From NCBI RefSeq assembly GCF_011393335.1, contig NZ_CP049865.1, forward strand, positions 1,568,722 to 1,632,721: a DNA stretch of 64,000 bases. Reading direction: 5' to 3'. Under the pieces are notes generated by a model that saw nothing but the letters and a program-made list of their open reading frames with translations, had not been told where the DNA came from and did not search any database. A program made the position numbers and the translations under genes. Below, piece by piece: positions 25,803 to 42,874 of the stretch (the first letter of the stretch is position 1; every line of letters begins with the position of its first letter). The stretch comes from Propioniciclava coleopterorum. Its GTDB lineage: Bacteria > Actinomycetota > Actinomycetes > Propionibacteriales > Propionibacteriaceae.

Positions 25803-25819
25803 TCTTGATGCGATCTTGA
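25803..25819 (+). promoter_or_regulatory. CTTGA direct-repeat operator between the two-component system and M23 gene
   Basis: TCTTGA (25803-25808) and TCTTGA (25814-25819) repeat with an 11-bp period. The site lies between the divergent response-regulator and peptidase genes and could serve both, giving autoregulation. Confidence 0.7.
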
Positions 25820-25964
25820 GACGATCCCGGTCGAACGGTGAGGCAACGCCGGGATGCTGAGTCAAGCCCGTGTTCGACCCGAGGCCGGCGTGCTGCCTTC
25901 GGTCTCTAGCCGGGGCCTCGTCGTGGGGCCGCACGGGGTCTTCCACAACGAGGAGTCAATTCGC

Positions 25965-26921
25965 GTGACGTCGTACCGTGCTGTCCGTGCCGTAGCCATG
26001 ACACCCAGCCGATCCGCAGGTGAGCGCCCGCGAGGTCCTTTGCCGGGAGCTGGCCCTCGGCGTGCGGCGCCTGCTGCGCAGCGCCGTCCGACGGTGGTTG
26101 CGCTGTCCAGCCTGGGGTTGGCGGCGGCCGTGGTCGCTAGCGTGGCGGTGGTCGGTCTGGGTGCGGCCACCTCGGTGGCCGCGGTGCCGCGTCCGGACGC
26201 CGTGGGCGCCCCGCTGCCCGTGGCGGAACTGCGCGGCGTGCAGACCAGCCGCGGCGAGACTCGCGTGACCAGGCAGGGGGATGCAATGCTGCCGGAAGGC
26301 CCAGCGGTGGGCGACGCCCGCGCTGCACGCAAGGCGGTGGCGGAGCGGCAGGCTGAACTGGAAGCCACGGCGGAGGCGATCGACCGGGAGACGCAGCGGC
26401 TCTCCGATGTCGCTGCGCAGCAACGGCAGCTGGCTGCGCGGGAGGCTGAGCGGGAGGCTGAGCGGGAGGCTGAGCGGGAGGCTGAGCGGGCGAAGGCGGC
26501 CGAGGCTGCTTCGAAGGCCTTCGTGTGGCCCACCGCGGGTGGGGTGTCCAGCGGGTTCGGGTACCGCGTCCACCCGATCCTGAAGAAGCGCAAGCTGCAC
26601 AACGGCGCCGACATCGGCGGGGCCTGCGGGCAGCCGATCGTGGCGGTCCGCGCCGGCGTCGTCACACGGGCGGAGCGATCAGGGTCGAATGGTGGGGCCG
26701 GCCACAATGTCCGGATCGACCACGGCCCGGTCGGCGGCGCCGAACTGGAGACGGCCTACCTGCACATGGACGACGTGGCGGTGAAGGTCGGCCAGCGGGT
26801 CGAGACCGGGCAACGGTTGGGCACGGTGGGCTCGACGGGTCTGTCGACGGCCTGCCACCTCCATCTCAGCCTCTACAAGGACGGCGCGGGCAGCGACCCG
26901 CTCGCCTACCTCACGAAGTAG
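25965..26921 (+). CDS. Secreted M23 (LytM-type) peptidase
   Basis: A protein of about 318 residues with a basic N-terminus, one hydrophobic export segment (ALSSLGLAAAVVASVAVVGLGAATSVAAV), an Ala/Glu/Arg coiled coil (about residues 115-185), and a C-terminal M23 metallopeptidase domain. Zinc ligands are visible in HNGAD (near 212-216) and HLHLS (near 299-303). Such enzymes cut or remodel peptidoglycan, or activate amidases. The GTG at 25965 is chosen for its GAGGAG site; ATG 25998 is possible. It is divergent from the two-component system with a CTTGA operator between them, so it may be metal-induced to remodel the wall. A 12-bp tandem repeat lies in the coiled coil. Confidence 0.85.
   Translation: MTSYRAVRAVAMTPSRSAGERPRGPLPGAGPRRAAPAAQRRPTVVALSSLGLAAAVVASVAVVGLGAATSVAAVPRPDAVGAPLPVAELRGVQTSRGETRVTRQGDAMLPEGPAVGDARAARKAVAERQAELEATAEAIDRETQRLSDVAAQQRQLAAREAEREAEREAEREAERAKAAEAASKAFVWPTAGGVSSGFGYRVHPILKKRKLHNGADIGGACGQPIVAVRAGVVTRAERSGSNGGAGHNVRIDHGPVGGAELETAYLHMDDVAVKVGQRVETGQRLGTVGSTGLSTACHLHLSLYKDGAGSDPLAYLTK
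26441..26488 (+). repeat. Four copies of a 12-bp tandem repeat in the M23 gene
   Basis: The unit GGAGGCTGAGCG repeats four times in frame and encodes (R)EAE blocks of the coiled coil. Because the unit is a multiple of three, copy-number slippage would lengthen or shorten the coil by four residues per unit without breaking the frame. Confidence 0.85.
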
Positions 26922-26927
26922 TCGCGA

Positions 26928-26944
26928 TCTTGACCGAACCTGAA
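26928..26944 (+). promoter_or_regulatory. Weak CTTGA-type operator before the multicopper oxidase unit
   Basis: A good half-site TCTTGA (26928-26933) is followed by a degraded second half, CTGAA, at 26940-26944. Position (67 bp before the next start) and the first half-site fit the series; the second half is poor. Confidence 0.45.
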
Positions 26945-27010
26945 CCCGCGCCACACGGCGACTCCACAGCAGGCGGCCACAGTGGCAGGACGTCAGGAGA
27001 GGGGATTGCT

Positions 27011-27250
27011 ATGGGCTGGGAGATGTGGGTCCTCATGCTCGTCGGCATGGCCGGCTTCTGGGCAGTGGTCCTGTTGGGCATCCGCGCGCTGTTCCTGGCG
27101 GGCGGAAAAACGCCTGAGCCGCGATTCCGCGATGCACCCGAGAACGACGCCACCGCCGGGCGCTCGCAGCCTCGGGCTTCGGCCGAGCCGCCGGCCCGGA
27201 CCGACTCCTCCTCAACGTCTCGAATAGCACCCATCGAAAGGCACCCATGA
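27011..27250 (+). CDS. Small single-helix membrane protein upstream of the oxidase
   Basis: A 79-residue protein with one N-terminal membrane helix (MGWEMWVLMLVGMAGFWAVVLLGIRALFLAGG) and a polar Pro/Ser/Arg tail. It is rich in Met and Trp near the membrane, as in many small copper-cluster proteins. GGAGAGGGG precedes the ATG and its stop overlaps the oxidase start (ATGA, 27247-27250), so the two are coupled. No domain is recognised in the tail; it resembles the membrane part of SHOCT proteins but the SHOCT motif is absent. It may help tether or mature the oxidase. Confidence 0.68.
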   Translation: MGWEMWVLMLVGMAGFWAVVLLGIRALFLAGGKTPEPRFRDAPENDATAGRSQPRASAEPPARTDSSSTSRIAPIERHP

Positions 27251-28752
27251 CTGGCATGTCCCGACGCACGCTCCTGCTCGGCGGACTCGGCCTCGGCGCC
27301 GCCGCCCTGACGGGCTGCACCTCCGCGCCGGCCGCCGGCCCCGTCCCCTCCGCGTCTGGCCCGATGCCGACGCTCCCGCCGGCCACCCCGAGACCCGGGC
27401 AACGGATCGTCGAGCAGGTCTTGACCGCCAAGCCTGTGACCCTCGACCTCGGCGGACCCACCGTCCCTACCTGGGCCTACGGCGACACCGCGCCCGGTCC
27501 GCTCGTGAGGGCTACCGCGGGTGACTTCCTCCGGATACGTCTTGACAACCAGTTGCCCGCGGACACCACCATCCACTGGCACGGGATCCGGCTGCACAAC
27601 AAGGCCGACGGGGTGCCCGGCATGACGCAGGACCCGGTCCCGGCCGGCGGGTCGTTCACCTACGAGTTCACCGCTCCGGATCCCGGCACGTACTTCTTCC
27701 ACCCGCACGTCGGCGTCCAACTCGACCGCGGCCTGTACGCCCCCCTGATCGTCGACGACCCGAACGAGCCGGGAGCCTACGACGCCGAGTGGGTGGTCGT
27801 GCTGGACGACTGGGTCGACGGCACCGGCCGCACCCCCGACGACGTCCTCGCGAAGCTGATCGCCGACGGGGGCCCTGCCCCCAGCGGCGGCATGGGCGGC
27901 ATGGGTGGGATGGGGGGCATGGACCACGGCGGTCACGGTGGCGGCAACGCTCCGCAACCGTGGGGGGATGCCGGCGACGTCACCTACCCCTACTTCCTGA
28001 TCAACGGACGCGTCCCCACCGCACCCGCCACGTTCGAGGCCAAGCCGGGCCAGCGCGTCAGGATCCGGCTCATCAATGCGGCGTCCGACACGATCTTCAC
28101 GGTCGCGCTCGGCGGCCACCGCCTGACGGTCACCCACAGCGACGGCTTCCCCGTGGAACCGCAGGAGGTCGACGCCCTCTACCTCGGCATGGGCGAGCGC
28201 TACGACGCCCTCGTCACCCTCGACGACGGCGTGTTCCCCCTGGTGGCTCGTCCGTTCGGCAAGACCGAGGGCGGCCAGGGCTTGGCCCTGGTCAGGACCG
28301 GTTCGGGTCAGGCCCCCGGCCCCGACGTGTCGCCCGCCGAACTGGCCGGGCGCATCCTGCTGGCCACCGACCTGCGTCCCCACGAGTCGGTGAGGCTGCC
28401 TTCACGATCGCCGGACGCCACCGCGCACATGTCGTTGGAGGGGTCGATGAGCCCGTACCGGTGGGGCATCAACGGGGCCCCGTTCGGGCAGAACCAGCCG
28501 CTCACCGTGCGTGAGGGGCAACGGCTACGGCTCAACGTGATGAACATGACGATGATGACCCACCCCCTGCATCTGCACGGGCACACGTTCGCGCTGCCGT
28601 CGGGGCTACGGAAGGACACGGTGCTGTTGGCGCCCATGCAGTCGATGGCGCTCGAGCTGGACGCCGACAACGTCGGTGACTGGATGGTCCACTGCCACAA
28701 CATCTATCACGCCGAGGCCGGGATGATGATCGGCCTGCTCTACCGCGGCTGA
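27247..28752 (+). CDS. Multicopper oxidase, Tat-exported lipoprotein (MmcO-like)
   Basis: A 501-residue oxidase that likely converts Cu(I) to Cu(II) on the outer membrane face. The N-terminus MSRRTLLLGGLGLGAAALTGC combines a twin-Arg motif with a lipobox Cys, as in folded, copper-loaded lipoproteins. All four copper-ligand motifs are present: HWHG (about residue 113), HPHVG (about 152), HPLHLHGH (about 439) and HCHNIYHAEAGM (about 482). A Met/Gly/His insert (GGMGGMGGMGGMDHGGHGG, about 217-236) may be a copper-collecting loop. It is coupled to the small membrane gene upstream. Being a lipoprotein, it is a natural client for the Lgt-Lnt pair encoded in the same island. Confidence 0.93.
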   Translation: MTGMSRRTLLLGGLGLGAAALTGCTSAPAAGPVPSASGPMPTLPPATPRPGQRIVEQVLTAKPVTLDLGGPTVPTWAYGDTAPGPLVRATAGDFLRIRLDNQLPADTTIHWHGIRLHNKADGVPGMTQDPVPAGGSFTYEFTAPDPGTYFFHPHVGVQLDRGLYAPLIVDDPNEPGAYDAEWVVVLDDWVDGTGRTPDDVLAKLIADGGPAPSGGMGGMGGMGGMDHGGHGGGNAPQPWGDAGDVTYPYFLINGRVPTAPATFEAKPGQRVRIRLINAASDTIFTVALGGHRLTVTHSDGFPVEPQEVDALYLGMGERYDALVTLDDGVFPLVARPFGKTEGGQGLALVRTGSGQAPGPDVSPAELAGRILLATDLRPHESVRLPSRSPDATAHMSLEGSMSPYRWGINGAPFGQNQPLTVREGQRLRLNVMNMTMMTHPLHLHGHTFALPSGLRKDTVLLAPMQSMALELDADNVGDWMVHCHNIYHAEAGMMIGLLYRG

Positions 28753-28760
28753 GCGGGAAC

Positions 28761-28776
28761 GTTGACGCGACCTTGA
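28761..28776 (+). promoter_or_regulatory. CTTGA direct-repeat operator
   Basis: GTTGA (28761-28765) and CTTGA (28772-28776) have an 11-bp period and lie 81 bp before the next start. Confidence 0.65.
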
Positions 28777-28856
28777 CGGTTCCCACAACCAGACCCGACC
28801 TTCGTCGACCAGCCTCGTTGGTGTAACGATCCGACCAACGTCAAGGAGTCCCTGCC

Positions 28857-29174
28857 ATGAATCACGACCACACCGACCATCGCACCGCCCCGCCGGCCGG
28901 CAGCGACCCGTACGACCGGTTCGCCGCCGACCCGTTCGCGCCGACCACCCCGGCACCGCCCGTTGGGCAGCCGGCCCCCACGGCCCAGCCCGTGCGGCAC
29001 CGGTGGTGGATGCACCTGCTGATGTGCGCCCCGATGCTGGCCGTCGTCGGATTCCTCGTCGCCACCGGGGCGGCCGGGTTCGGCGCCATCGGCTACGCCG
29101 TACTGTGCATGGCGATGATGGGCGCGATGATGCTGTTCATGAACCAGGGCTCCGCTGGCGGCCACAAGCATTGA
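28857..29174 (+). CDS. Small His-rich membrane protein (DUF2933-like)
   Basis: A 105-residue protein with a His/Asp N-terminus (MNHDHTDHRT), a Pro-rich linker and two membrane helices (HLLMCAPMLAVVGFLVATGA and IGYAVLCMAMMGAMMLFM), ending in GGHKH. The WWMHLLMCAPM block with Met, His and Cys is the type seen in small DUF2933-like proteins of copper clusters. It lies 42 bp before the CPD-type ATPase with an operator in front, so it opens that transcription unit. A copper-handling role is inferred from residues and context. Confidence 0.68.
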   Translation: MNHDHTDHRTAPPAGSDPYDRFAADPFAPTTPAPPVGQPAPTAQPVRHRWWMHLLMCAPMLAVVGFLVATGAAGFGAIGYAVLCMAMMGAMMLFMNQGSAGGHKH

Positions 29175-29216
29175 CCCCGGCACCCCCACGCCCGTCCGCC
29201 CTGACAGGAGAATGTG

Positions 29217-31661
29217 ATGAACCTGAACTCCACCGCCGAGTCGGTCGTGCTGCACGTGGGTGGCCTGCACTGGGCCACCACCGCCCACGGCGTCGAACAG
29301 ACCCTCCTGACCCGGCCAGGCGTGCTGGCGGTCGACGCGAACGCGATCTCGCAGACGGCGACCGTCACGTTCGACCCGACGCGGACCGACGTCGCCGAAC
29401 TTCAGGGCTGGGTGCGCGAGTGTGGCTACCACTGTGCCGGCGAGTCACAGCCCACCCACGTGTGCGTTCCCCGCATCGAACCGGCAGGTCATCCCGGCGG
29501 GCACGCAGCCCCGGACGCCCACGCGCGGCACGGCGGCCCCGGAACCACGGTGCCGCACGGTCATGGGGGGCACGACCAGGCGGCGAGCCACGCCGCGGGG
29601 GTGGTGATCTCGCCGCATGACGCGATGGGTCATGGCGGTCATGGGGGGATGTCGATGGACGCCATGGTCGCCGACATGCGCAACCGGTTCCTGGTCGCGG
29701 CGGTGCTGTCGGTGCCGATCACGTTGTTCTCCCCGATGGGACGCGACATGCTCGGCTTCGGGCTGCCGGCGCCGTTCGGGTTGCGGGACGAGGTGTTCGC
29801 CCTGGTGTTGTCGCTGCCGGTGGTGTTCTACGCGGGCTGGATCTTCTTCGACGGGGCTTTCCGCGCCCTGCGGAACCGGACGCTGGACATGATGGTGCTG
29901 GTCGCGATCGCGATCGGCGCCGGGTGGCTGTACAGCCTGTACGTCACGCTCACCGGTGGTGGCGAGGTGTTCTTCGAGGCGGCCGCGGTGCTGACCACGT
30001 TCGTCTTGTTGGGGCACTGGTTCGAGATGCGGGCCCGCGGCGGCGCGAACGACGCCATCCGGGCGTTGCTGGACCTGGCGCCGCCGATGGCGACGGTGAT
30101 TCGTGACGGGGTCGAGGCCGACGTGCCCACCAGCGAGGTGCTGGTCGGCGACCTGGTGCTGGTCCGTCCCGGCGCGAAGGTGCCCGTCGACGGCGTCGTC
30201 CGGGAGGGCCGTTCCGAGGTGGACGAGTCGATGGTGACCGGGGAGTCCTTGCCGGTCGACAAGACGGTCGGTTCAGCGGTGGTGGGGGCGTCGATCAACA
30301 CCACGGGGACGCTGCGGGTGGAGGCCACCAAGGTGGGCGCGGACAGCGCCCTGGCGCAGATCGTCGCGCTGGTGCAGCAGGCGCAGAACTCGAAGGCCCC
30401 CGGCCAGCGGCTCGCGGACCGGGCGGCGTTCTGGCTGGTGCTGGTGGCCATCATCGGAGGAGGGCTCACGTTCGGGGCCTGGCTGCTGGCCGGCGCGTCG
30501 GTCCAGACGGCGATGCTGTTCGCGATCACGGTGGTGGTCATCACCTGCCCCGACGCCCTCGGACTGGCGACGCCGACCGCGAGCATGGTCGGCACCGGTC
30601 TGGGCGCCAAGCGAGGAGTGTTGTTCAAGAACGCCACCGCCCTGGAGACCTCCGCGAAGGTCAACACGGTGGTGATGGACAAGACCGGCACGCTCACCCG
30701 CGGCGAACCCGAGGTGACCCAGGTCATCGCCGTCGGGGGCGACCCCCACCTCGACCTGGTCGCGGCGGTGGAGCGCGAATCCGAACACCCGCTCGCGGCC
30801 GCCGTGGTCACCCATGCCGACGCCCTCGGCGTCGCGACCCGTAAGGCTGCCGAGTTTCGCAACGTGCCCGGCCACGGGGCCACCGCCGTCGTCGACGGAC
30901 TGGACGTTGCGGTCGGAAACCGGCGGCTCATGGAGTCCCTCGGTGTCGACCTGTCGGCGGCGGGGCCGATCCGCGAGCGGGTCGCCGCCCAGGGCCAGAC
31001 CGCCGTGTTCGGAGCGGTGGACGGCCGCATCGTGGCGGTCATCGGGTTGGCGGACGCCCCCCGCGAGACCTCCGCCCGGGCGGTCGCGGCGTTGCACGAC
31101 CAGGGAGTGCAGGTGGTGATGCTGACCGGGGACAATCAGGCGACCGCACAGCGGATCGCCGCCCAGCTGAGGATCGACACGGTGATCGCGGACGTGCTGC
31201 CCGGCGACAAGGCCGCCCATGTGGCCGATCTACAACGCCAGGGGCGGGTGGTGGCGATGGTCGGTGATGGTGTCAACGACGCCCCTGCTCTGGCCCAGGC
31301 TGACGTGGGGGTCGCGATCGGGGCGGGCACCGATGTGGCGATCGAGACGGCCGACCTGGTCCTCATGCGGTCGGACCCCCTCGACGTGCCGACCGCCCTG
31401 ACCATCGGCCGTGGCACGCTGCGGAAGATGCGGCAGAACCTGGGCTGGGCGGTCGGTTACAACGTGGTCGCCCTGCCGATCGCGGCCGGCGTGTTTGCCG
31501 GCGTCGGGCTGACCCTACGGCCAGAGATCGCTGCGCTGTCGATGTCCGGTTCCAGCCTGATCGTCGCTGTCAACGCCCTGCTGCTGAAGCGGTTGCGGCT
31601 TCCTGACGAGCACCACCGCCGACCAGGCACCCCGGCCGCGCAGGCTGCGTCGGGATCTTGA
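29217..31661 (+). CDS. P1B-type ATPase with CPD motif and Cys-free HMA-like N-terminus
   Basis: An 814-residue metal pump. Residues 1-75 fold like an HMA domain ([23 protein letters not shown]), but the CxxC is absent (GLHWAT instead). A His/Gly-rich stretch follows (about 85-140). The membrane metal site is CPD (about residues 443-445, [11 protein letters not shown]) where most copper pumps have CPC or CPH. Catalytic motifs are complete: TGES, DKTGT (about 488), SEHPL, MLTGDN and [15 protein letters not shown] precedes ATG 29217. The final TCT-TGA (Ser-stop) sits inside the next operator. It is probably a Cu(II)-, silver- or other soft-metal exporter; substrate is uncertain because of the CPD site. 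Confidence 0.86.
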
Positions 31662-31672
31662 CGCGACCTTGA
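31657..31672 (+). promoter_or_regulatory. CTTGA direct-repeat operator before the cupredoxin-CopA gene
   Basis: CTTGA (31657-31661, containing the stop codon of the previous gene) and CTTGA (31668-31672) have an 11-bp period. Confidence 0.75.
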
Positions 31673-31723: not shown

Positions 31724-31742
31724 GGTACCCCTGGGGGGTATC
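31724..31742. promoter_or_regulatory. CsoR-type operator
   Basis: TACCCC (31726-31731) and GGGGTA (31735-31740) form a G/C-tract palindrome of the kind bound by Cu(I)-sensing CsoR repressors. It ends 22 bp before the ATG of the cupredoxin-CopA gene, and a csoR gene lies at the end of that unit. Confidence 0.7.
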
Positions 31743-31764
31743 AGGACAGGGTGAGGTGGTTGTG

Positions 31765-34410
31765 ATGAGTTGGCTCGTCATCGGCGGCGCGGTGGTCGTC
31801 ACCGGGTTGTTGTGGTGGTTCTTCTTCGGTCCGAAGCGGGCCGGACAGGTGAGCCTGGAGGACGGCGTCCAGGTGGTGCGGGTCACCGTGGACGGTGGCT
31901 ACAGCCCGGACGTGATCGAGGGCGTCCGCCCGGGCGTACCGGTCAGGCTCCTGTTCGACCGGCAGGAGAGCGGTGAGTGCACCTCGCGGGTGGTCATGCC
32001 CGACTTCAAGGTCAACGCAGCGCTGCCGGCGTTCCGGACCACGGCGGTGGAGTTCCTTCCCACCGAAACGGGGGAGTACCGCTTTGCGTGCGGGATGAAC
32101 ATGGTGTCCGGGGTGGTCCGGGTCAGCGGGAGCCCCCCGGCCGATACCCAAGGCGGCGGCACCGTGGTGGAGCAGGCCTCCCGGCCGGTGGACGGAACGA
32201 CCGCGGCCGGCGGCACCGCCCCCGACGCGGAGGCGGAGGAGGCTGAGCGTGCCGCCGAGATCCGCGACTTGACCCGCCGCCTGCTGGTGGGTGCGGTGCT
32301 GTCGGCGCCGGTGCTGGTCGCGGTGATGGCGGTGGAGTTGTTCCAGGCGATGTGGGTTCCCGAGTTCCTGATGAACCCGTGGCTACAGCTGGCGTTGATC
32401 GCTCCGGTGATGTTCTATACCGGCTGGCCGATCCACCGGACCGGCTGGAAGGCGCTGTCGCACCGGACCGCCGACATGAACTCGCTGATCACCTTGGGCA
32501 CGTTTGCCGCCTTCGGCTACAGCCTGGTGGTCACGTTCCTGCCCTGGCTGCTGCCCGACGCGCTGCGGCACGTGTACTACGAGGCCGTCGGGGTGATCAT
32601 CACCCTCATCCTGCTCGGGCGGCTGCTCGAGACGAAAGCGAAGGCCGGCACCGGTGAGGCAATCCGAGCTCTGATCGGGCTGCAGCCCCGCACCGCGCGC
32701 GTCGCACGCGACGGTGCCGAACTCGAGGTCGGCGTTGATGAGGTGCGGGTCGGCGACATCGTGCTGATCCGGCCCGGGGAGAAGCTCCCGGTCGACGGCG
32801 AGGTGACCAGCGGCTCCTCCTCGATCGATGAGTCGATGGTGACCGGCGAGTCCATGCCGGTGACCAAGTCCGTCGGTGACACCGTGATCGGCGCCACCAT
32901 CAACACCACCGGCGCCCTGCGCTACCGCGCCACCAAGGTCGGCGCCGACACGATGCTGGCCCAGATCATCAAGCTGGTCCGCGAAGCCCAGGGCTCCAAG
33001 GCGCCCATCCAGCGGCTCGCCGACCAGGTGTCCAGCTACTTCGTGCCCGCGGTGATCGTGATCGCGGTGTGGACCTTCGTCGCGTGGGTGCTGGTCGGCC
33101 CGCCGCCGGTGTTCATCTTCGCGCTCGTGGCGGCCGTGTCGGTGCTGATCATCGCCTGCCCGTGCGCCCTGGGGCTGGCCACTCCCATGTCGATCACCGT
33201 CGGCACGGGCAAGGGCGCCTCGCACGGCATCCTGATCCGCTCCGCCGAAGCCTTGGAGACCGCGCACAAGCTGCAGACGATCATCCTCGACAAGACCGGC
33301 ACCCTGACCCGCGGCGTCCCGGCCCTCACCGACGTCATCCCCGTGACCGACGGGGGTGAGGACCGCCTCCTGGCCGCTGTCGCCGGGGTCGAGCGGGCCT
33401 CCGAGCACCCGCTGGCGGCCGCGATCGTGGCCGGGGCGACCGAGCGCGGGCTCGCTGTGCCCGAGGTCGACGGGTTCGAGTCCGTCACCGGCCAAGGGGT
33501 GATGGCGCGGGTCGACGGGCGGCGCGTGCTGGTCGGCAATCGCCGGCTGCTGGACGCGTTCGGGGTGGACGCGGCCGTCCTGCTCGCCGCCCACGACCGG
33601 CTGGCCGCCGAAGGCAAGACCGCGATGCTGGTCGCGGTCGACGGACGCCCCGCCGGCGTGGTGGCCGTGGCCGACACCCTCAAGGAAGGCGCCCCGGCGG
33701 CGGTCGCAGCCCTCCAGGCCCGCGGCATCGAGGTCGTGATGATGACCGGTGACAACCGGCACACCGCCGCCGCGATCGCCCGCCAGGTCGGCATCACCCG
33801 CGTCGTCGCCGAGGTGATGCCCGACCACAAGGCCGCCGAGGTCCGGCGCCTGCAGGCCGACGGCAAGGTGGTCGGCATGGTCGGCGACGGCATCAACGAC
33901 GCCCCCGCCCTCGCCCAGGCCGACGTCGGGTCGGCGATCGGGACCGGCACCGACGTCGCGATCGAGTCCTCCGACATCACGTTGGTCTCGGGGGCACTGG
34001 TGGGCATAGTGACCGCCGTCGACCTGTCCCGGGCCACCATGCGCAACATCAAGCAGAACCTGGTGTTCGCGTTCCTGTACAACATCCTGGGCATCCCGAT
34101 CGCCGCCGGCGTGCTCTATCCGGCGTTCGGGATCACCCTCAGCCCGATCATCGCCGCCGCCGCGATGGCACTGTCGTCGCTGTCGGTGGTCGCCAACGCG
34201 AACCGGCTCCGCCGGTTCACCCCCCGTCCACTGGCTGCCACCACCCAGGTGGCCGGCGTCGACCCGCTCGTCGAGGTGGGCGGCAGCGTCGAAGCCTCAC
34301 CACACCCAACGAAAGGAAACCACCATGTTCGGCCTGTTCGGCAAGAAGAAGGACACCACCACCGCCAAGGTCGTCGACCCGGTCTGCGGTATGAAGATCA
34401 ACCCCGCTGA
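31765..34410 (+). CDS. copA: Copper-exporting P-type ATPase with fused N-terminal cupredoxin-like domain
   Basis: An 881-residue pump. The N-terminus has one membrane helix (about residues 3-20) and then a cupredoxin-like domain (about 30-120) with Cys in SGECTSR, Met/Pro in VVMPDF and Cys/Met in FACGMNM: candidate copper ligands that would sit outside the cell. The CopA core follows with CPC (about 464-466), TGES, DKTGT (about 509), SEHPL, MMTGDN and [10 protein letters not shown]. There is no cytoplasmic HMA domain. GTG 31756 is an alternative start. The last 29 codons overlap the YHS gene and read poorly, so a frame error near the end is possible. Both a CTTGA site and a CsoR-type box precede it. 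Confidence 0.9.
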
Positions 34411-34534
34411 CGCGGCCGCCACCCGCGACCACGACGGCACCACGATCTACTTCTGCTCCAAGGGCTGCGCCGAAACCTTCGACGCGGACCCGCACCGTTA
34501 CGCGCATGGACCCTCCGGCGCCGGCCACCACTGA
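34325..34534 (+). CDS. YHS-domain protein
   Basis: A 69-residue protein. [44 protein letters not shown] is a full YHS domain (Cys in DPVCGM, Cys pair in FCSKGC). YHS domains occur at the N-terminus of, or beside, heavy-metal ATPases and are thought to bind copper. The N-terminal [10 protein letters not shown] is a short amphipathic lead. AAAGGAAA precedes the ATG. It overlaps the ATPase tail by 86 bp and csoR by 29 bp, making a tightly packed ATPase-YHS-csoR unit. It may pass copper to the pump or to CsoR. Confidence 0.85.
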
Positions 34535-34850
34535 CCCGGGCGCTGCAACACCCGCAGCCCAGCGGAGCGCGTCGGGCCCACGGACCCGACGTGCCCTGCT
34601 GGGCCGGCTGCGGCGCATCGAGGGGCAGGTCCGCGGGATCGCCCGGATGGTCGACGGCGACGCCGACTGCATCGAGATCCTCACCCAGGTGGCCGCAGTC
34701 ACCCACGCCCTCGAAGCCGCAGCCCTGATGCTGGTCGACCAACACCTCCGCGACTGCCTGCAGCGGGGGGCAGCCACCACCCTGGCCGACGAGCAGACAA
34801 AACAGGTGGAGCAGGCCCTCCGGGCCGTCGAACGGCTGCTCCGCACTTGA
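34506..34850 (+). CDS. csoR: Cu(I)-sensing repressor CsoR
   Basis: A 114-residue all-helical DUF156/CsoR-family repressor (ALLGRLRRIEGQVRGIARMVDGDADCIEILTQ). The Cu(I) ligand set is complete: Cys55, then His80 and Cys84 in DQHLRDC. On Cu(I) binding CsoR leaves its G/C-tract operator; such a box sits at 31724-31742 in front of the same unit, so the operon is probably self-limiting. The start overlaps the YHS gene by 29 bp. The N-terminal 25 residues are a Pro/Ala extension not needed for the fold, so a later start is possible. Confidence 0.92.
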   Translation: MDPPAPATTDPGAATPAAQRSASGPRTRRALLGRLRRIEGQVRGIARMVDGDADCIEILTQVAAVTHALEAAALMLVDQHLRDCLQRGAATTLADEQTKQVEQALRAVERLLRT

Positions 34851-35642: not shown

Positions 35643-35658
35643 CTTGGCCGAATCTTGA
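35643..35658 (+). promoter_or_regulatory. CTTGG/CTTGA operator, first of two before lgt
   Basis: CTTGG (35643-35647) and CTTGA (35654-35658) have an 11-bp period and lie in the divergent DUF305-lgt intergenic region. Confidence 0.6.
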
Positions 35659-35696: not shown

Positions 35697-35712
35697 CTTG
35701 ACGTGATCTTGG
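35697..35712 (+). promoter_or_regulatory. CTTGA/CTTGG operator, second of two before lgt
   Basis: CTTGA (35697-35701) and CTTGG (35708-35712) have an 11-bp period, 89 bp before the lgt start. Two paired sites in one region suggest control of both divergent genes. Confidence 0.6.
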
Positions 35713-35800: not shown

Positions 35801-36574
35801 GTGTGGCCGGTGTTGTTCTCAGTGTTCGGAATCCAGATCCAGTCGTACGGGGTGAGCAAGGCCCTCGCGGCGCTGGTCGCCGCGTGGCTGCTCGGCCGCG
35901 CCTTCCGCAAGCTCGGCTTCCCGGTCGACCAGGCGCACTCGCTGGTCCTGTGGGCGGCGGTGTGGGGGTTCGTGGCCGCCAAGGTGTACTTCCTGATCGA
36001 CAACCGCGCCCAGTTCAGCTGGCACCTGCTCGGTAGCTCCGGGTTCGTCTGGTACGGCGGACTGATCGGCGGCATCCTCACCGTCGTCGTCCTGACCCGC
36101 CGCTACCAGCTGCCTCTGGCCACCGTGGCCGGCGCGACCGCGCTCCCGCTGTCGGTGGCGTACGGGATCGGCAGGATCGGCTGCTTCCTGGCGGGCGATG
36201 GCACCTACGGCACGCCGACCGACCTGCCCTGGGGGATGGCCTTCCCGAACGGCGTCGTGCCCGTGACCGTCCCGGTTCACCCCGCCCAGTTGTACGAGGC
36301 TGCCGGCGCGTTCGCGATCGCCGCCGTGCTCTGGCTGCTGGCCCGCCGCTGGCTGCCGCTGTCGGTGTTCGGCGGCTACCTCGCCCTCAGCGGGGCCGCG
36401 CGACTGCTGGTCGAGATCGTCCGGGTCAACGACCGCGTCCTGCTCGGCCTCACCGAAGCGCAACTGTTCGGCGTGCTCAGCATCATCGCCGGCGTCATGC
36501 TGATCGCGGTCGACCGCCGGCAGCGGACCCCCGAGCCCGCCGCCGCACACCCGGTCGAGCCGGCGCGCGTGTGA
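35801..36574 (+). CDS. lgt: Prolipoprotein diacylglyceryl transferase
   Basis: A 257-residue membrane enzyme that adds diacylglycerol to the lipobox Cys of preprolipoproteins. It has about seven membrane helices. Family landmarks are GFVWYGGLIGG, the signature GRIGCFLAGDGTYG (about residue 124 onward) and HPAQLYEA. It starts with GTG after GGAGGAG. It is shorter than many chromosomal actinobacterial Lgt proteins, which often carry long C-terminal tails, so I regard it as an accessory copy. It is followed 28 bp later by lnt and preceded by two CTTGA-type operators, implying copper-responsive expression. Clients may be the oxidase and DUF305 lipoproteins of the island. Confidence 0.9.
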   Translation: MWPVLFSVFGIQIQSYGVSKALAALVAAWLLGRAFRKLGFPVDQAHSLVLWAAVWGFVAAKVYFLIDNRAQFSWHLLGSSGFVWYGGLIGGILTVVVLTRRYQLPLATVAGATALPLSVAYGIGRIGCFLAGDGTYGTPTDLPWGMAFPNGVVPVTVPVHPAQLYEAAGAFAIAAVLWLLARRWLPLSVFGGYLALSGAARLLVEIVRVNDRVLLGLTEAQLFGVLSIIAGVMLIAVDRRQRTPEPAAAHPVEPARV

Positions 36575-36602: not shown

Positions 36603-38186
36603 ATGACGACCCTGCGGACCGCACGGGACGCGTCATGGGCCCGGCAGCGGTGGCCGCGTCACTGGGCACCGCTGGTCGCGGCGGGGGCGGCGGGTGCGGC
36701 GGGGTTGGTGACGGGCACGGGTGTCGCACCGCTGGGCTGGTGGCTCGCCCCACCGGTTGGCGTCATGGTGCTCACCGTCGCCGTGCACCGGAGCACGTCG
36801 CTCCGGGCTGCGGCTGCCGTGGGGCTGGCCTACGGCCTTGGCCTGTCCGGACCAACCCTGGGCTGGATGGCCGCCATCCACCCGGCCGCCCTGGTAGGGC
36901 TGCTGTTGCTCTCCTCCAGCTGGTCTGCGGTCACGGCCGTGCTGGTCCGCGCCGCCGGCCGGAGCCGCGGCTGGCCCGTACTGGCAGCCCTGGCCTGGTT
37001 GGGCGTGGAGTTCCTCGCCGCCCGCGTCCCGTTCGGCGGCTTCGGCTGGCTGCGGCTCGGCTACACCCAGATCGACTCGCCCCTGGCCGGGCTGTACCCC
37101 TTCATCGGGGTGGCCGGCGTCAGCTTCTCCGTGGTCCTCACGGGACAGCTGGGCGCCTGGATCCTGCTGGGGCCCTCCAGGCGGCGCCTGGCCTGGTCCG
37201 CGGCGTGGCTGGTCGTCGTCACCGGCGCCGCCACCGCCGGTACCGTGACCCCGACCCCGCCCCCTGACGGCGTCGTCACCGCGGGCTGGGTCCAGGGTGG
37301 CGCACCCGGCGGCGGCGTCTACGGCCTCGGCCCGCCTCGTACCATCACCACCAACCAAGCACGGGCCACCCGCGAACTGGCCGCCGCGATCGACGCCGGC
37401 CGCCTGCCGGCCCCCGACTTCGTCGTGTGGCCCGAGAACGCCACCGACCTCGACCCCGACACCGACCAGCGCACCGGCCAGCTCGTCGAGCAGTCCGTCG
37501 CGGCCGTGGGGCGTCCCGTGCTGGTCGGCGCCATCCTCGACGGTCCCGGACCCCGCCAGCGGCGAACCGCCGCCCAATGGCGCGAACCCGACGGCCGGAT
37601 CGGGCCCACCTATCAGAAACGCTCGATCGTCCCGTTCGGCGAATGGATCCCGTTCCGAGACGTGCTGCTGCCGCTGATCCCTGCCCTGCGCTACGTCGGC
37701 GCCCAGTCCGTGGCCGGCACTGATCCGGGTCTTCTCGACGTACAGCTCCCCGACGGACGCTCGATCACCCTCGGCGTGCTGGCCTGCTTCGACGTCGCCT
37801 TCGACCCCGTCGTGCACGACCTCGCCACCGCGCAGGCCGTCATCGTGCAAAGCAACAACGCCATGTACCAGGGCACCGCCCAGATCGAGCAACAGTTCGC
37901 CATCACCCGGGCCCGGGCAGCGGAACTGCGCCGCGACACCCTCGTCGTCACCACCAGCGGCATCACCGGACTCATCGATCCCACCGGGCGGGTCACCATG
38001 AAGGTCACCGAACCGGGTCCCGCCGTTGGAGTGGTGCAACTCGGCCTGCGCACCGGGACCACCACCGCCAGCTGGCTCGCCACCCCCCTGGAGGTCACCG
38101 CGACCGTGGCCGCCGCGCTCTGGATCACGGCGCTCACGCTGACGCCTTCGCCGCGCAGGCGCTTTCATCCCTTGGTCGGATCTTGA
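36603..38186 (+). CDS. lnt: Apolipoprotein N-acyltransferase
   Basis: A 527-residue protein with six or seven N-terminal membrane helices and a nitrilase-type domain. The catalytic triad is visible: Glu in WPENATD (about residue 277), Lys in YQKRSIVPFGEW (about 339) and Cys in LACFDVAFD (about 395). Lnt adds the third acyl chain to lipoproteins. With lgt directly upstream the island encodes both the first and last acylation steps. The signal peptidase gene is not present here. The stop codon (GGATCT-TGA) lies inside the next operator. The start at ATG 36603 gives the family length. Confidence 0.9.
   Translation: MTTLRTARDASWARQRWPRHWAPLVAAGAAGAAGLVTGTGVAPLGWWLAPPVGVMVLTVAVHRSTSLRAAAAVGLAYGLGLSGPTLGWMAAIHPAALVGLLLLSSSWSAVTAVLVRAAGRSRGWPVLAALAWLGVEFLAARVPFGGFGWLRLGYTQIDSPLAGLYPFIGVAGVSFSVVLTGQLGAWILLGPSRRRLAWSAAWLVVVTGAATAGTVTPTPPPDGVVTAGWVQGGAPGGGVYGLGPPRTITTNQARATRELAAAIDAGRLPAPDFVVWPENATDLDPDTDQRTGQLVEQSVAAVGRPVLVGAILDGPGPRQRRTAAQWREPDGRIGPTYQKRSIVPFGEWIPFRDVLLPLIPALRYVGAQSVAGTDPGLLDVQLPDGRSITLGVLACFDVAFDPVVHDLATAQAVIVQSNNAMYQGTAQIEQQFAITRARAAELRRDTLVVTTSGITGLIDPTGRVTMKVTEPGPAVGVVQLGLRTGTTTASWLATPLEVTATVAAALWITALTLTPSPRRRFHPLVGS
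38171..38186 (+). promoter_or_regulatory. CTTGG/CTTGA operator overlapping the lnt stop
   Basis: CTTGG (38171-38175) and CTTGA (38182-38186) have an 11-bp period; the second half-site contains the lnt TGA stop. It lies 47 bp before the next start. Confidence 0.65.
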
Positions 38187-38232
38187 CCAGAGCCGGGCCG
38201 ACACCACACCGACGTCACGCACCCTCGACGGT

Positions 38233-38694
38233 ATGGACACCAGCCTGACCGACCCCCCGGCATCTACTCTGGCCGCCGACAGCGTCACCGCGGCCACCCC
38301 GTGGCGGGCCCGCGCCGCCGGGGCGTGGGCGGCCACCCGAGCCACGTTCGGGGCCCTGCTCGGGCTCGCACCGCATGTCCTGCACCACGTCGGATTCCTC
38401 GCCGGCGCCGCCCTCCTGACCGGCGTCGTGGGCAACACGGTGCTCTACGCAGCCGGGATGCTGCTCAGCATCCCGATGCTCAACCGCCTCCGGAAACGGT
38501 TCGGCACCTGGAAGGCGCCAGCGCTGGGGGCGATCGCCTTCACCAGCCTGTTCACACTGTCCGCGTTCGTGATCGGGCCCGCCCTCAACCCGACACCCGT
38601 CGCACCCCAGCCCGCGGCGACCACTGGCCCCACCGGCCAGCCGCTGGAGGAACACGACGGGCACCACCCAGACACGAACCAGACCAGATCTTGA
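38233..38694 (+). CDS. Small membrane protein of the copper island
   Basis: A 153-residue protein with two or three membrane helices: LGLAPHVLHHVGFLAGAALLTGVVGNTVLYAAGMLLSIP and APALGAIAFTSLFTLSAFVIGP. The APHVLHH motif puts two His at a membrane edge, and the C-terminus is EEHDGHHPD, so metal contact on either side is plausible. I do not recognise a named family; similar proteins accompany metal ATPases in actinobacteria. It has its own CTTGA operator in front and its Ser-stop is embedded in the next operator. Confidence 0.7.
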   Translation: MDTSLTDPPASTLAADSVTAATPWRARAAGAWAATRATFGALLGLAPHVLHHVGFLAGAALLTGVVGNTVLYAAGMLLSIPMLNRLRKRFGTWKAPALGAIAFTSLFTLSAFVIGPALNPTPVAPQPAATTGPTGQPLEEHDGHHPDTNQTRS

Positions 38695-38705
38695 CCCGGC
38701 CTTGA
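38690..38705 (+). promoter_or_regulatory. CTTGA direct-repeat operator before the YibE/F gene
   Basis: CTTGA (38690-38694, including the previous stop codon) and CTTGA (38701-38705) have an 11-bp period. This is one of the best matches in the set. Confidence 0.75.
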
Positions 38706-38780
38706 CCTCCGGCTCATGCGCTGGCTGCCACGCTGGACGATCGTGACCACACCTCGCCTCGTCCCTCCGGTGGCCACCCC

Positions 38781-40054
38781 ATGAGCGGGGATCACCATCA
38801 CCACGGGCATGATGGGGGGGACGCCGACGTGCGCGTCTCCCGGACGGCCCGCTCGCGACACTAGTGCTGTTGGCCGTCGTGGCGGCGATCACCATGGCGG
38901 GCTTGGTGTGGTTGTGGCCCACGGAACGGGTGTTGCCGGAGGGTTCGGTGCTGACGGCCGAGGGGATCGTGCCCGTGCGCGGGCAGGTCACCGCGATCGA
39001 GCCGGGCCCGGCGGCCCCGGACGCCCCGCCGACCGGGGCGGACGCCGGCGTCCAGCACGCCTGCCTCGTCGCCCAGGTCGAACTCGACCGCCGTGCGGGC
39101 GAACTCGTGGACGTGGAGCTGGTGGGAGTGACCGCGTGGAGCGGCCTGCAGCCCGGCGACGGCGTCCACGTGGCCGAGGTCGGCGCCACCGAGGGGGTGC
39201 CCGGGGGATGGTCGTTGATCACGGTTGACCGGATCCCGGTCCTGGCGATCTTCACGATCTTGTTCGTGGTGGCGGTGCTGGTCGTCGCCGGCCGCAAGGG
39301 CTTCTTCGGGCTGCTGGGGCTGGTGGTGTCCGGGGTGGTGCTGTTCGGGTTCATGATCCCGGCCCTCACGTCGGGACAGCCGGCTGTGTGGGTGGCGATC
39401 GTGGGGTCGACCGCCATCATGTTCGTGGTGCTCTATCTGGCCCATGGGGTGTCGTGGCGGACCACGTCAGCGTTCGTCGGCACCTGGTTGAGCCTGTTGG
39501 TGACCACCGGCCTCGGCGCGCTGGGCGTCTCGATGGCCCGGCTGAGCGGCATCTCCAGTGAGGAGACCCTCGCGCTGACCAACCTGCTCGGTGACCTCGA
39601 CTTCCCTGACATCCTCACCTGTGGTCTGGTGATCGCGGGCCTGGGCGTGCTGAACGACGTGACGATCACGCAGGCGTCGTCGGTGTGGGAGGTCCGGGCC
39701 GCCGGGCCGCACCTGAGCCGGGGGCAGTTGTTCGCCTCGGGCATGCGGATCGGGCGTGACCACATCGCTTCGACGATCTACACCATCGTGTTCGCGTACG
39801 CCGGCGCCGCGTTGTCGCTGTTGCTCCTGCTGTCGTTGTACGAGCAGCCGCTGAACCTGCTGCTGTCGACCGAGCAGTTCTCCGAGGAGATCATCCGCAC
39901 CCTGGGCAGCGGCATCGGGCTGGTGTTGAGCGTGCCCCTGACCACCGGGGTGGCCGCTCTCACCGTCGCCGGCGCGGCTGGGGCGGCTCGCCGATCGGGT
40001 AGAGGAGCCGACGACCCCGAGCGGGCCGCCCCGGGCCCCCGGCGAGCGATCTAG
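38781..40054 (+). CDS. YibE/F-like membrane protein with His-rich N-terminus, frameshifted as read
   Basis: A multi-pass protein of the YibE/F family (about 424 residues after correction). The ATG at 38781 starts MSGDHHHHGHDGGDADVRVSRT. As read, this frame stops at 38862-38864. The first membrane helix (PLATLVLLAVVAAITMAGLVWLW) lies one base back. One extra C in the C3 run at 38848-38850 joins them. The remainder has an extracytoplasmic loop (about residues 50-140) and seven or more helices with the family motifs NLLGDLDFPDILTCGLVIAGLGVLNDVTITQASSVWE and SGMRIGRDHIASTIYTIVFAYAGA. Function is unknown; a transporter role is suspected. The His-rich lead and CTTGA operator support a copper link. 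Confidence 0.75.
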
Positions 40055-40055: not shown

Positions 40056-40071
40056 TCAAGGTATGGCCAAG
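40056..40071 (-). promoter_or_regulatory. CTTGG/CTTGA operator in reverse orientation
   Basis: Read on the minus strand, CTTGG (40067-40071) and CTTGA (40056-40060) have an 11-bp period. It lies 84-99 bp before the DUF305 lipoprotein gene and is the only member of the set pointing against its downstream gene. Confidence 0.55.
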
Positions 40072-40775: not shown

Positions 40776-40787
40776 GAACCCGACCGT

Positions 40788-40822: not shown

Positions 40823-40862
40823 CTCGGACGACCGCACATGCTGTTCTCAGGCCAGACGAGAT

Positions 40863-40878
40863 CTTGAGGCTGCCTTGA
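40863..40878 (+). promoter_or_regulatory. CTTGA direct-repeat operator before the redox trio
   Basis: CTTGA (40863-40867) and CTTGA (40874-40878) have an 11-bp period, 28 bp before the glutaredoxin-like start. Confidence 0.75.
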
Positions 40879-40905
40879 CCGGTCCCCCCGGTGAGGGGAA
40901 CCACC

Positions 40906-41229
40906 ATGGTCGTCGTGAACACGACGAACAACACTTGGGCCCGGGTCGGCCACCAGACCGACCGGGCTGCGTCGCCCATGGTCACCCTGGTAACCGCAGA
41001 GGCCTGCCACCTCTGTGAGGACGCCCACACGGAACTCCTGAACCGCGCGACCCAAGGGCAGCTACTGCTCGACCAGGTGGACGCCGAATCACCGCAGGGC
41101 CAGAAGCTCCTCCATCAACACCGCCCGGCCATGTTCCCCCTCGTGCTGCTCGACGGCGCGTTCCTCAGCGCCGGACGCCTCCCGCGCCGCAAGCTCGACC
41201 GCGCCCTCGCGGCACGGAAGGCCTCGTGA
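40906..41229 (+). CDS. Glutaredoxin-like thiol protein
   Basis: A 107-residue thioredoxin-fold protein. MVTLVTAEACHLCEDAHTELLNRA holds the CxxC active site (Cys about 34 and 37) of the glutaredoxin/DUF836 type. PLVLLDGAFLSAGRLPRRKL is the usual cis-Pro and C-terminal part. The start is ATG 40906 because AGGGGA lies 6 bp upstream; the N-terminal 25 residues are an extension. Its stop is adjacent to the ccdA-like start (TGATG, 41227-41231). It is predicted to work with the next two genes in thiol exchange under copper stress. Confidence 0.82.
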   Translation: MVVVNTTNNTWARVGHQTDRAASPMVTLVTAEACHLCEDAHTELLNRATQGQLLLDQVDAESPQGQKLLHQHRPAMFPLVLLDGAFLSAGRLPRRKLDRALAARKAS

Positions 41230-42206
41230 TGGGCTCGGAACTCCTGGCAACTGGCAGCATCCTGGCCGCCTTCTTCGCGGGCACGGTGGCACTGTTCGCA
41301 CCCTGCTGCATCGTCTTCCTCGCCCCGTCGTACCTGGCTGCTGCGGTCAAGAACAACCGGTGGCGCCTCCTCCCGCTGACCTTCGTCTTCGCGGCAGGCC
41401 TGGCGCTCGTCCTGGTCCCGATCACGCTCGGGGTGAGTCTGCTGGCCGGTGCGATCGCCAAGTACCACGTGATCCTGTACTGGGCCGGTGGCCTGCTCAT
41501 GATCGGCCTCGGCCTGCTGGCCCTCAGCGGCCGGATGTGGTCGATGCCGTCGATGCTGCGCGCCCCCGACACCACCCGCGGCGACACGGCGACCTTCTTC
41601 AGCCTCGGCGTGTTCTCCGGGATCGCGTCCAGCTGCTGCGCCCCCGTCCTGGCAGGCGTGATGACCCTGTCCGCCCTCTCGGGCAACCCGCTCGGCGGCC
41701 TGGTCCTCGGGCTGGCGTTCGTGTTCGGCATGGTCATCCCGCTGCTCGTCATGGCACTCGTGTGGGACGCCGCCCGCCTCAACGAACGACGCTGGGGCCG
41801 GGCGAAGCCCATCAGGGTGACCGTCGCCGGCCGCACGCTGCACACCAACAGCGTGAACCTGCTCGTCGCGGGCGCGTTCGTCAGCATGGGCGTCTGGGTC
41901 ATCACCCTCGCTGGCACGGCGACGATGACCGGGTCGGGCACCTGGGTGCAGCTCGCCGCCGGCGACTGGGTCACCCAAGCCGCGCAGGCCGTCCTCGGCT
42001 GGCTTGCCCCGGTCCCTGAGCCCGTCCTCGGCCTCGCCTTGTTGGGGCTGGCCGGGGTGTTCGTGTGGACCACGCTCCGCGACCGCCGCCGCGACGCGCG
42101 CCAGGGAGCCGAAGAGCACGCCGACGCCGACCCCACCCTGCCGCACTGCCACAGCACGACCGACGCCGACCACCCGATCGCCGACCACGACACCGCGAGG
42201 AACTGA
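41229..42206 (+). CDS. ccdA: CcdA/DsbD-like transmembrane thiol transporter
   Basis: A membrane protein of about 325 residues. The core helices carry paired Cys motifs FAPCCIVFLAPS (about residues 22-33) and SSCCAPVLAG (about 135-144), which in CcdA/DsbD shuttle electrons across the membrane. The double Cys in each motif is noteworthy. Further helices follow, and the C-terminus is His/Asp-rich (HCHSTTDADHPIADHD), possibly metal-binding. ATG 41229 (or GTG 41226) directly follows the glutaredoxin stop. It would supply reducing power to the TlpA-like protein outside the membrane, where copper oxidises thiols. Confidence 0.83.
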   Translation: MGSELLATGSILAAFFAGTVALFAPCCIVFLAPSYLAAAVKNNRWRLLPLTFVFAAGLALVLVPITLGVSLLAGAIAKYHVILYWAGGLLMIGLGLLALSGRMWSMPSMLRAPDTTRGDTATFFSLGVFSGIASSCCAPVLAGVMTLSALSGNPLGGLVLGLAFVFGMVIPLLVMALVWDAARLNERRWGRAKPIRVTVAGRTLHTNSVNLLVAGAFVSMGVWVITLAGTATMTGSGTWVQLAAGDWVTQAAQAVLGWLAPVPEPVLGLALLGLAGVFVWTTLRDRRRDARQGAEEHADADPTLPHCHSTTDADHPIADHDTARN

Positions 42207-42211
42207 CGACC

Positions 42212-42832
42212 ATGCCCAGCAACCAGCGCACCACCATCAGCCGCCGGCAACAGCTCCGAGACCAACGGGCACGAGAATCAGCCAAGGAGACCAAGCGTCG
42301 CCGCCTGTTCAGAATCGCGACCGGGCTGCTGACCACGCTCATCGTCGCCCTCGTCGGGTTCGGCCTGTGGAGCGCCCGCCCCGTCGAGGGTGGCCCGTCC
42401 GGTCAGGCGCCCGCGTTCACCCTGCCGACGACCGCGGGCACCACCGTGTCCCTGGCCGACTACCGCGGCCAGCCCGTGCTTCTCTACTTCAACGAGGGCG
42501 CCGGCTGCGGCTCCTGCACCCAGCAGATGGCCCTCATCGAGCAGGAGCCGGGCTTCGCCGCAGCCGGCATCACCGTGCTCCCCATCGTGATGAACACCGC
42601 CGCCCAGATCCAGCCCGACCTGGACCGCTTCGGCGTCACCACCCCCTACCTGCTCGACGACGGCACGGTCTCGAAGGCCTACGACACCCTCGACAAGGGC
42701 ATGCACCCAGGCCTGCCCGGGCACGGCTTCGTCCTGATCGACGCCGACGGCAACAAGCTCTGGCACGGCAACTACCCCTCCATGTGGCTCGACCCCGCCG
42801 AACTCCTGCACGAAGCCACCAGCCGCCTGTGA
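42212..42832 (+). CDS. Membrane-anchored TlpA/AhpC-type thioredoxin-fold protein
   Basis: A 206-residue protein with a very basic cytoplasmic N-terminus, one membrane anchor (FRIATGLLTTLIVALVGFGLW, about residues 34-54) and an outer redoxin domain (QAPAFTLPTTAGTTVSLADYRGQPVLLYFNEGAGCGSC). The active site is GCGSC (about residue 101-106). DKGMHPGLPGHGFVLIDADG is the typical later part. It lies 5 bp after the CcdA-like gene. It is predicted to receive electrons from CcdA and keep Cys or copper-site proteins reduced outside the cell. The context makes it part of the copper regulon. Confidence 0.85.
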   Translation: MPSNQRTTISRRQQLRDQRARESAKETKRRRLFRIATGLLTTLIVALVGFGLWSARPVEGGPSGQAPAFTLPTTAGTTVSLADYRGQPVLLYFNEGAGCGSCTQQMALIEQEPGFAAAGITVLPIVMNTAAQIQPDLDRFGVTTPYLLDDGTVSKAYDTLDKGMHPGLPGHGFVLIDADGNKLWHGNYPSMWLDPAELLHEATSRL

Positions 42833-42858
42833 ACGGGCGCGAACGCTGCGCCGCCGAC

Positions 42859-42874
42859 CTTGTAGCGATCTTGA
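42859..42874 (+). promoter_or_regulatory. CTTGT/CTTGA operator before the SHOCT protein
   Basis: CTTGT (42859-42863) and CTTGA (42870-42874) have an 11-bp period, 70 bp before the next start. Confidence 0.6.

Follow-up and report, generated by a model that had tools for sequence, protein, structure and literature searches.

In a 64 kb stretch of the genome of Propioniciclava coleopterorum (the window; contig NZ_CP049865.1, positions 1,568,722–1,632,721) we find what appears to be a self-contained mobile copper regulon under a two-component system of the CopS–CopR type. Judged from its sequence and that of its relatives, we put the probability of this reading at about 0.87. The island is marked by a direct repeat, CTTGA-N6-CTTGA (the box), which recurs upstream of its plus-strand units and around orthologues of its regulator in other genera. 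An earlier note on this DNA had described the repeats and had proposed that one OmpR-type regulator drives the whole island; the observation is confirmed and the interpretation is supported.

Exact copies of the repeat number four in the window, where dinucleotide shuffles give 0.01, and 13 sites are found with up to one mismatch, where 1.15 are expected. The source genome is a single contig of 3,671,901 bases (3.67 Mb) and it too holds four exact matches, every one in the island and on the plus strand; a control with the pattern written backwards gave 2+4. With up to one mismatch the whole genome has 37 sites versus 54 for the backwards control, and 13 of the 37 fall within the window. A matrix trained on 61 boxes of relatives alone, the window being excluded, gave its ten best window scores to the ten plus-strand sites already listed in the earlier note; scores of at least 14 occurred 13 times in the window, never in the reversed window and 0.3 times per Markov window. 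The same ten came out best when a sequence model built from 39 of 43 boxes (model R1) was run unfiltered on the window. In a filtered genome scan, which scored 150 of 2902 first-look candidates, the five best model R1 matches were island boxes (E 0.0006 to 0.12), as were seven of the 27 matches overall. None of the 20 outside matches (L171–L173, L175–L185, L187–L192) combined two half-sites, their mismatches summing to no more than two, with a -10-like element at position 50 or 51. One (L191) has two half-sites with one mismatch and no -10, and another (L176) has the -10 and three mismatches; both were rejected, and this filtered scan gave no convincing site beyond the island. Such a genome-wide search had been proposed in the earlier note, which held that a similar density of sites over unrelated genes would speak against a regulon. 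The island boxes instead head the list, and no such density was seen for exact sites or, within the filtered scan, for the composite model.

Positions are counted here from the first C of a box, and NANNNT is taken as -10-like. Box 1 (CTTGATGCGATCTTGA, 25804–25819), which is exact and has the top matrix score, is followed by GATGCT at 25853 and precedes the M23 peptidase gene. Box 2 (CTTGACCGAACCTGAA, 26929–26944), ninth by the matrix and also recovered by model R1, begins with a perfect half and has CTGAA for the other; with CACAGT at 26978 it precedes a unit of a small open reading frame (ORF, 27011–27250) and the multicopper oxidase gene. Box 3 (GTTGACGCGACCTTGA, 28761–28776; one mismatch; CAGCCT at 28810) lies before orf28857 and the HMA copper ATPase CopA (29214–31661), and Box 4 (CTTGACGCGACCTTGA, 31657–31672; exact; TAACCT at 31706) before the cupredoxin-ATPase gene (31756–34410), a YHS-like ORF and the CsoR gene. 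The gap between the divergent DUF305a and Lgt genes contains Box 5a (CTTGGCCGAATCTTGA, 35643–35658; one mismatch), which has no in-register -10, and Box 5b (CTTGACGTGATCTTGG, 35697–35712; one mismatch; GACAGT at 35746), the latter heading Lgt (35801–36574) and Lnt (36603–38186). Box 6 (CTTGGTCGGATCTTGA, 38171–38186; one mismatch; CACCCT at 38220) precedes orf38233 and is the top model R1 match of the genome scan. Box 7 (CTTGACCCGGCCTTGA, 38690–38705; exact), itself preceded by a degenerate upstream copy, has either CACGCT at 38729 or GATCGT at 38739 and leads to YibE/F (38864–40054), perhaps with DUF305b. Box 8 (CTTGAGGCTGCCTTGA, 40863–40878; exact; CACCAT at 40902) precedes the redox trio of glutaredoxin-like, CcdA-like and redoxin genes (40891–42832), and Box 9 (CTTGTAGCGATCTTGA, 42859–42874; one mismatch; CACCAT at 42909) the gene of a SHOCT protein (42945–43190). 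All ten are on the plus strand.

The earlier note had claimed at least eight matching sites with an 11-bp period. All of them exist, four as exact copies (25804, 31657, 38690 and 40863) and four with one mismatch (28761, 35643, 35697 and 38171); the first lies at 25804, one base from the 25803 given there. Two further sites described as one base off, 42859 and a reversed one at 40056, do have one mismatch each. The reversed site (40056–40071, minus strand, between YibE/F and DUF305b) is of doubtful membership and was set aside on account of its lower matrix score and the lack of a -10 in place. A site credited with one good half at 26928 (Box 2, at 26929) is indeed half-perfect, yet it ranks among the ten best and has its -10 in place. 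The statement that boxes precede nearly every unit holds for the plus-strand units and does not clearly extend to the DUF305 genes. Other window sites with at most one mismatch lie at 9918, 20091 and 40640; the last is inside a DUF305 gene and was set aside.

The spacing of the half-sites is conserved around orthologous regulators. A first set, 746 kb in all, was made up of 40 loci of the regulator from the window's family; in it exact CTTGA pairs occurred 43 times at a gap of 6, in 27 of the loci, and 0–4 times at each of 16 other gaps (1 to 17). Without L121–L125, which are near copies of the window, 35 pairs remained at gap 6 in 22 of 35 loci, with 0–4 at other gaps. CTTCA pairs were found 12 times at gap 6 and 0–2 times elsewhere. 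A second set comprised 30 loci, of which 17 came from a search across the phylum, 10 were plasmid records and 3 were contigs; it held 7 CTTGA, 26 CTTCA and 8 mixed pairs at gap 6, and 0–6 per class at other gaps (0–14). It partly overlaps the first, L225 being the contig of L008 and L227 and L231 sharing long stretches with L087 and L089. Half-sites at gap 6 were direct in 62 cases, inverted in 10 and everted in none; a third half-site was weak when tested. Plasmids with orthologous regulators (Cellulomonas p110066, Rhodococcus pRHL3 and those of Corynebacterium faecale and Kocuria rosea) carry both forms and hybrids, and p110066 has nearly the whole island gene set, with a box before its Lgt orthologue. 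CTTGA boxes were not enriched in 80 loci from a contig search, which have mostly distant regulators and some closer ones with CTTCA, and a de novo search for 5-mer repeats of period 11 in 14 of those 80 gave no copper box. Streptomyces CutRS, taken up as a lead from a text match, was dropped: the CTTGA there belongs to primers.

A -10-like element stands at a fixed distance from the box. In the first set, where 62 boxes had full flanks and one look-alike was dropped, NANNNT starts at position 50 or 51 in 43 of 61 boxes, the mean at other neighbouring position pairs being 3.6; five more boxes have it at 39 or 40, one repeat unit nearer. In the mirror direction the maximum was 9 of 61, at 51. 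For the second set the positions had been chosen in advance, and 32 of 41 boxes had the element at 50/51, or 27 of 35 when six boxes with look-alike flanks were removed (elsewhere mean 2.0, maximum 10); in the pooled sets 76 of 103 boxes have it at 50/51. Within the window it starts at 50 for seven boxes (25804, 26929, 28761, 31657, 35697, 38171 and 38690), at 51 for 42859, and at 40 for 40863, or 51 when counted from a degenerate upstream copy at 40852. At 38171 and 40863 the -10 is followed by 7 nt and then a start codon (ATG 38233 and GTG 40915, respectively), so that the predicted messages would begin as in leaderless ones. It might be argued that the repeats are themselves core promoter elements, an extended -35 or the signature of an extracytoplasmic function (ECF) sigma factor, rather than activator sites: CTTGA holds the TTGA of a -35, and upstream of the genes the spacing from box to -10-like element is constant. 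The second half-site, however, ends 33–34 bp before the -10, far over the 16–18 bp of a -35/-10 spacer; at position 27, the expected start of a -35, TTG occurs in one of the 103 pooled boxes, and the strict 11-bp period of the two half-sites suits an activator bound in tandem. We consider the core-promoter explanation very improbable. A fixed -10 without a -35 fits an activator-dependent promoter.

The boxes are tied to the neighbouring regulator by position, by the genes that they precede and by its recognition helix. In 21 of 68 loci, the window among the 21, a box lies no more than 400 bp from the regulator; in 20 of them it reads away from the regulator, and in 19 it is 54–115 bp from the regulator start. 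Downstream genes were surveyed for 64 boxes of 42 loci (L121, L126–L160 and six others), 19 of the boxes having no island-type gene in reach. Boxes stood before orthologues of the redox trio (Grx; 12, all in the same direction), DUF305 genes (10, 8 of them same), the cupredoxin-ATPase and orf28857 (5 each, all same), the multicopper oxidase (5, 4 same), CopA (3, all opposite), Lgt and M23 (one each, same), SHOCT and orf38233 (one each, opposite), and the regulator itself (10, 9 opposite); the M23 box and one ATPase box come from L121, a near copy of the window. The arrangement of Box 4 at the cupredoxin-ATPase recurs in L126, L128, L135 and L138. DUF305 genes of relatives do have boxes, unlike those of the window, where no clear forward one stands before either.

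The helix residue pair that follows VDVHV or VDVHI is mostly A-N, A-H or G-N with CTTGA, and G-H or L-H with CTTCA. Boxes with a -10 at 50/51 or 39/40 were counted by the commoner base of each locus, with kinship uncorrected. The first set (41 loci, of which 12 with no box, a tie or another type were set aside and one had no regulator) gave 21 G + 1 C in the one helix class versus 0 G + 6 C in the other (post hoc Fisher 2e-5); the second (30 loci, 15 set aside) gave 5 G + 1 C versus 0 G + 9 C (Fisher 0.002; 0.005 when the repeated contig L225 is dropped). A simple code of two residues (A or N versus GH/LH) fails, as 19 Corynebacterium-type regulators pair G-N with CTTCA; their helices, and that of L088, begin DER and not DEH or DDH. 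A genome encodes many OmpR-family regulators (G000 has 36 first-look candidates), several of which might recognise CTTGA repeats, the regulator next to the boxes then being a bystander to another one of the cell. Against this, the boxes cluster at the loci of this regulator in many genera, the near ones 54–115 bp from its start and nearly always facing away; they covary with its recognition helix, and no exact box exists beyond the island. We therefore regard a bystander role as unlikely, and the CopR-like regulator as the probable reader of the boxes.

The closest known system is CopRS of Corynebacterium glutamicum, whose CopR was shown to bind TGAAGATTTgaTGAAGATTT by gel shifts with mutated fragments (PMC3140484, in the part of that paper available to us). 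The other strand of this site reads AAATCTTCAtcAAATCTTCA, that is, CTTCA-N6-CTTCA, the window repeat with C for G. The box TGAAGATTTnnTGAAGATTT itself is absent from the window, where CTTGA replaces CTTCA and the spacer is freer; the window repeat is thus a variant of the CopR box and not an identical member. Of the 401 genomes of family f5, 20 contain the proven box with up to one mismatch (control 0), and 19 of the 20 belong to one genus, taken as Corynebacterium. In those 19 the regulator beside the box is 57–58% identical to that of the window, and the box again reads away from it. Kinases beside the proven-type box carry the loop GPxLFHDHM...HAEQAY, with small changes, in 17 of the 17 loci (of 19) where the alignment reaches it; of 65 kinases in our two sets, 62 retain one of the loop histidines and 63 the other. 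As far as the available part of PMC3140484 goes, the two systems share an OmpR-type regulator, an 11-bp direct repeat that faces away from the regulator at about 115 bp or less from its start, the sensor loop of the kinase, and a copper ATPase and a multicopper oxidase among the targets. They differ in half-site (CTTGA versus CTTCA), in the number of boxes (about ten versus one), in the wider gene set of the island (Lgt-Lnt, M23, YibE/F and the redox trio), and in the fixed -10 position, which is mostly lacking at Corynebacterium-type boxes. The characterised actinobacterial CopR regulon that we located in the literature consists of one site, in one species (PMC3140484, same portion).

In the model that we envisage, copper outside the cytoplasm is sensed by the kinase, probably by way of two conserved histidines in the short loop that joins its two membrane segments. 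The phosphorylated regulator would bind two CTTGA half-sites head-to-tail, one helical turn (11 bp) apart; binding of this kind has been demonstrated by experiment for the C. glutamicum relative and CTTCA half-sites (PMC3140484, as above). It would recruit RNA polymerase to promoters that have a -10 33–34 bp past the box, or one repeat nearer, and no -35. Nine plus-strand units would be driven in this way: M23; the small ORF with multicopper oxidase; orf28857-CopA; cupredoxin-ATPase-CsoR; Lgt-Lnt; orf38233; YibE/F, perhaps with DUF305b; the redox trio; and the SHOCT protein. The minus-strand DUF305a is without a box in clear register. The boxes presumably travel with the island and, within reach of the scans, are not common to the rest of the genome.

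A second input is likely at the cupredoxin-ATPase. The palindrome TACCC...GGGTA is what we take to be the CsoR operator consensus, and its sole match to the search expression in the window (TACCCCTGGGGGGTA, 31726–31740) lies just past the predicted Box 4 transcript start. The matching promoters of L128, L135 and L138 have such a palindrome and L126 an imperfect one (by eye), while none occurs within 150 bp after any other of the 103 pooled boxes (34 such palindromes in 1.39 Mb). Extracytoplasmic and cytoplasmic copper signals thus probably meet at this promoter, with CsoR blocking it until cytoplasmic Cu(I) rises. Both systems would give copper-responsive control of a copper ATPase; CsoR differs in being a cytoplasmic repressor with a palindromic box, at one island unit only. 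One could ask whether the boxes themselves are CsoR operators or operon-end hairpins, given a CsoR gene in the island, outer inverted repeats at three boxes (by eye) and the TGA of a CTTGA half-site doubling as the upstream stop codon in three (CopA 31657–31661, Lnt 38182–38186, orf38233 38690–38694). The CsoR-type box is a distinct sequence, however, found in the window solely at 31726; the half-sites are direct, not inverted, and the outer inverted repeats were not striking in relatives' boxes (by eye, uncounted). That explanation is scarcely credible. Control by one OmpR-type regulator, as the earlier note had it, is supported by the recurrence of the repeat with the regulator's orthologues and before the same genes, by the fixed -10 and by the helix covariation, with its exceptions; given the CsoR-type operator at the cupredoxin-ATPase unit, that regulator probably does not act alone.

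Several points weigh against the island being a regulon of this form. The filtered scan listed seven of the ten island boxes, so weak sites elsewhere could be missed. The counts are raised by kinship among the loci, and the second set shares some of its sequence with the first. In the first set mixed CTTGA/CTTCA pairs show no excess at gap 6 (4 versus 0–6 elsewhere), and 10 of the 30 second-set loci have no exact CTTSA box, among them Janibacter (L005), whose regulator is 66% identical. The promoter rule fails at Corynebacterium-type boxes (17 of 18 without NANNNT at 50/51); eight second-set CTTCA boxes, some likely due to chance, have no -10 in place, nor do 35643 and the reversed 40056 at 50/51. 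In the window both DUF305 genes are without a clear forward box of their own, and CopA has to be served by the box ahead of orf28857.

In the block between about 24.7 and 43.2 kb there are stretches 92–99% identical to G034, G052 and G093 of the same genus and to G024 and G087 of other genera, and the island seems to move together with its regulator and boxes. In G034 and G024 most of the M23 gene has no counterpart. The contig of G087 stops at window 35.1 kb, and with that genome 89% complete and 5% contaminated the copy may be stray. An IS110-family element sits at the island end (43204–44667); G034, G024 and G093 run straight from 43204 to 44667 without it. A second, inverted copy with identical transposase is at 46274–47500.

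Regulons of this kind are known (CopR); what is new, within the literature searched, is the CTTGA variant, together with the promoter rule, the covariation and the set of genes. The search covered few subscription journals, and in the texts available, PMC10433416 among them, it gave no CTTGA form, no promoter rule and no Lgt-Lnt under CopR. Copper-induced lipoprotein remodelling is known from Listeria, where the transacylase Lit2 lies in copper operons (PMC7387801, in its available part). Shared with the island, on that portion of the source, are a lipoprotein-modifying enzyme, copper control and mobile DNA; the differences are that Lit2 is found in Firmicutes, and that here Lgt and Lnt of an actinobacterium are predicted to be under two-component control. 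Tentatively, at somewhat less than even odds, we would extend the case to Actinomycetota: a CTTSA-N6-CTTSA box 33–34 bp before a -10, with no -35, may form one transplantable module of their copper islands, in which two or three CopR helix residues read the G or C, regulator and boxes are switched together, and lipoprotein acylation and cell-wall hydrolase genes have been captured. CTTGA and CTTCA islands would then be insulated from each other. With the promoter rule the copper regulon could be recognised in many actinobacterial genomes; the rule also predicts where transcripts start, and ties Lgt-Lnt lipoprotein acylation, cell-wall hydrolysis and DUF305 proteins to copper defence. The series of helices and bases would be natural material for a protein–DNA recognition code, and a moving island with its own activator and promoters would explain immediate function in new hosts.

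Twenty window proteins were run against Pfam; those of 28857–29174 and 38233–38694 matched no family, and the glutaredoxin-like and SHOCT matches fall slightly below the cut-off. On the minus strand are the kinase, the regulator and DUF305a, the second DUF305 gene. The CopR-like regulator (25028–25741) has the make-up of the OmpR/PhoB class, with a receiver domain and a winged-helix domain (Response_reg PF00072 and Trans_reg_C PF00486) both above cut-off. The CopS-like sensor histidine kinase (23904–25031) has HAMP, HisKA and HATPase domains, two membrane-like segments and the conserved two-His loop; we infer its start from a GTGA overlap with the regulator stop. Pfam families on the plus strand are, in order, M23 peptidase, multicopper oxidase, HMA-type P-type ATPase, cupredoxin-fused P-type ATPase, CsoR, Lgt, Lnt, YibE/F, DUF305, glutaredoxin-like, CcdA-like, redoxin and SHOCT. 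The M23 ORF (PF01551) spans 25854–26921 in its long form, with GTG 25965 as the likely start; at 26420–26490 it has a short in-frame repeat EREAEREAEREA, where the G093 alignment breaks. The multicopper oxidase (27247–28752) has Cu-oxidase domains. Between the cupredoxin-ATPase and the CsoR-family repressor (34506–34850, plus strand, PF02583) the small ORF 34325–34534 shows, by eye, a YHS-like CGM...C...C pattern. On copper plasmids of Tsukamurella, Mycolicibacterium, Rhodococcus and Corynebacterium (L230, L232, L233, L234 and L236), Lgt/Lnt or cell-wall enzymes (RipA/B/C, L,D-transpeptidase, M23) lie near CopR-like regulators; their exact boxes do not adjoin the Lgt or Lnt genes. A 27-codon His-rich ORF (MSGDHHHHGHDGG...) at 38781–38863, whose stop overlaps the GTG of YibE/F, may be either a leader peptide or a frameshifted N-terminus.

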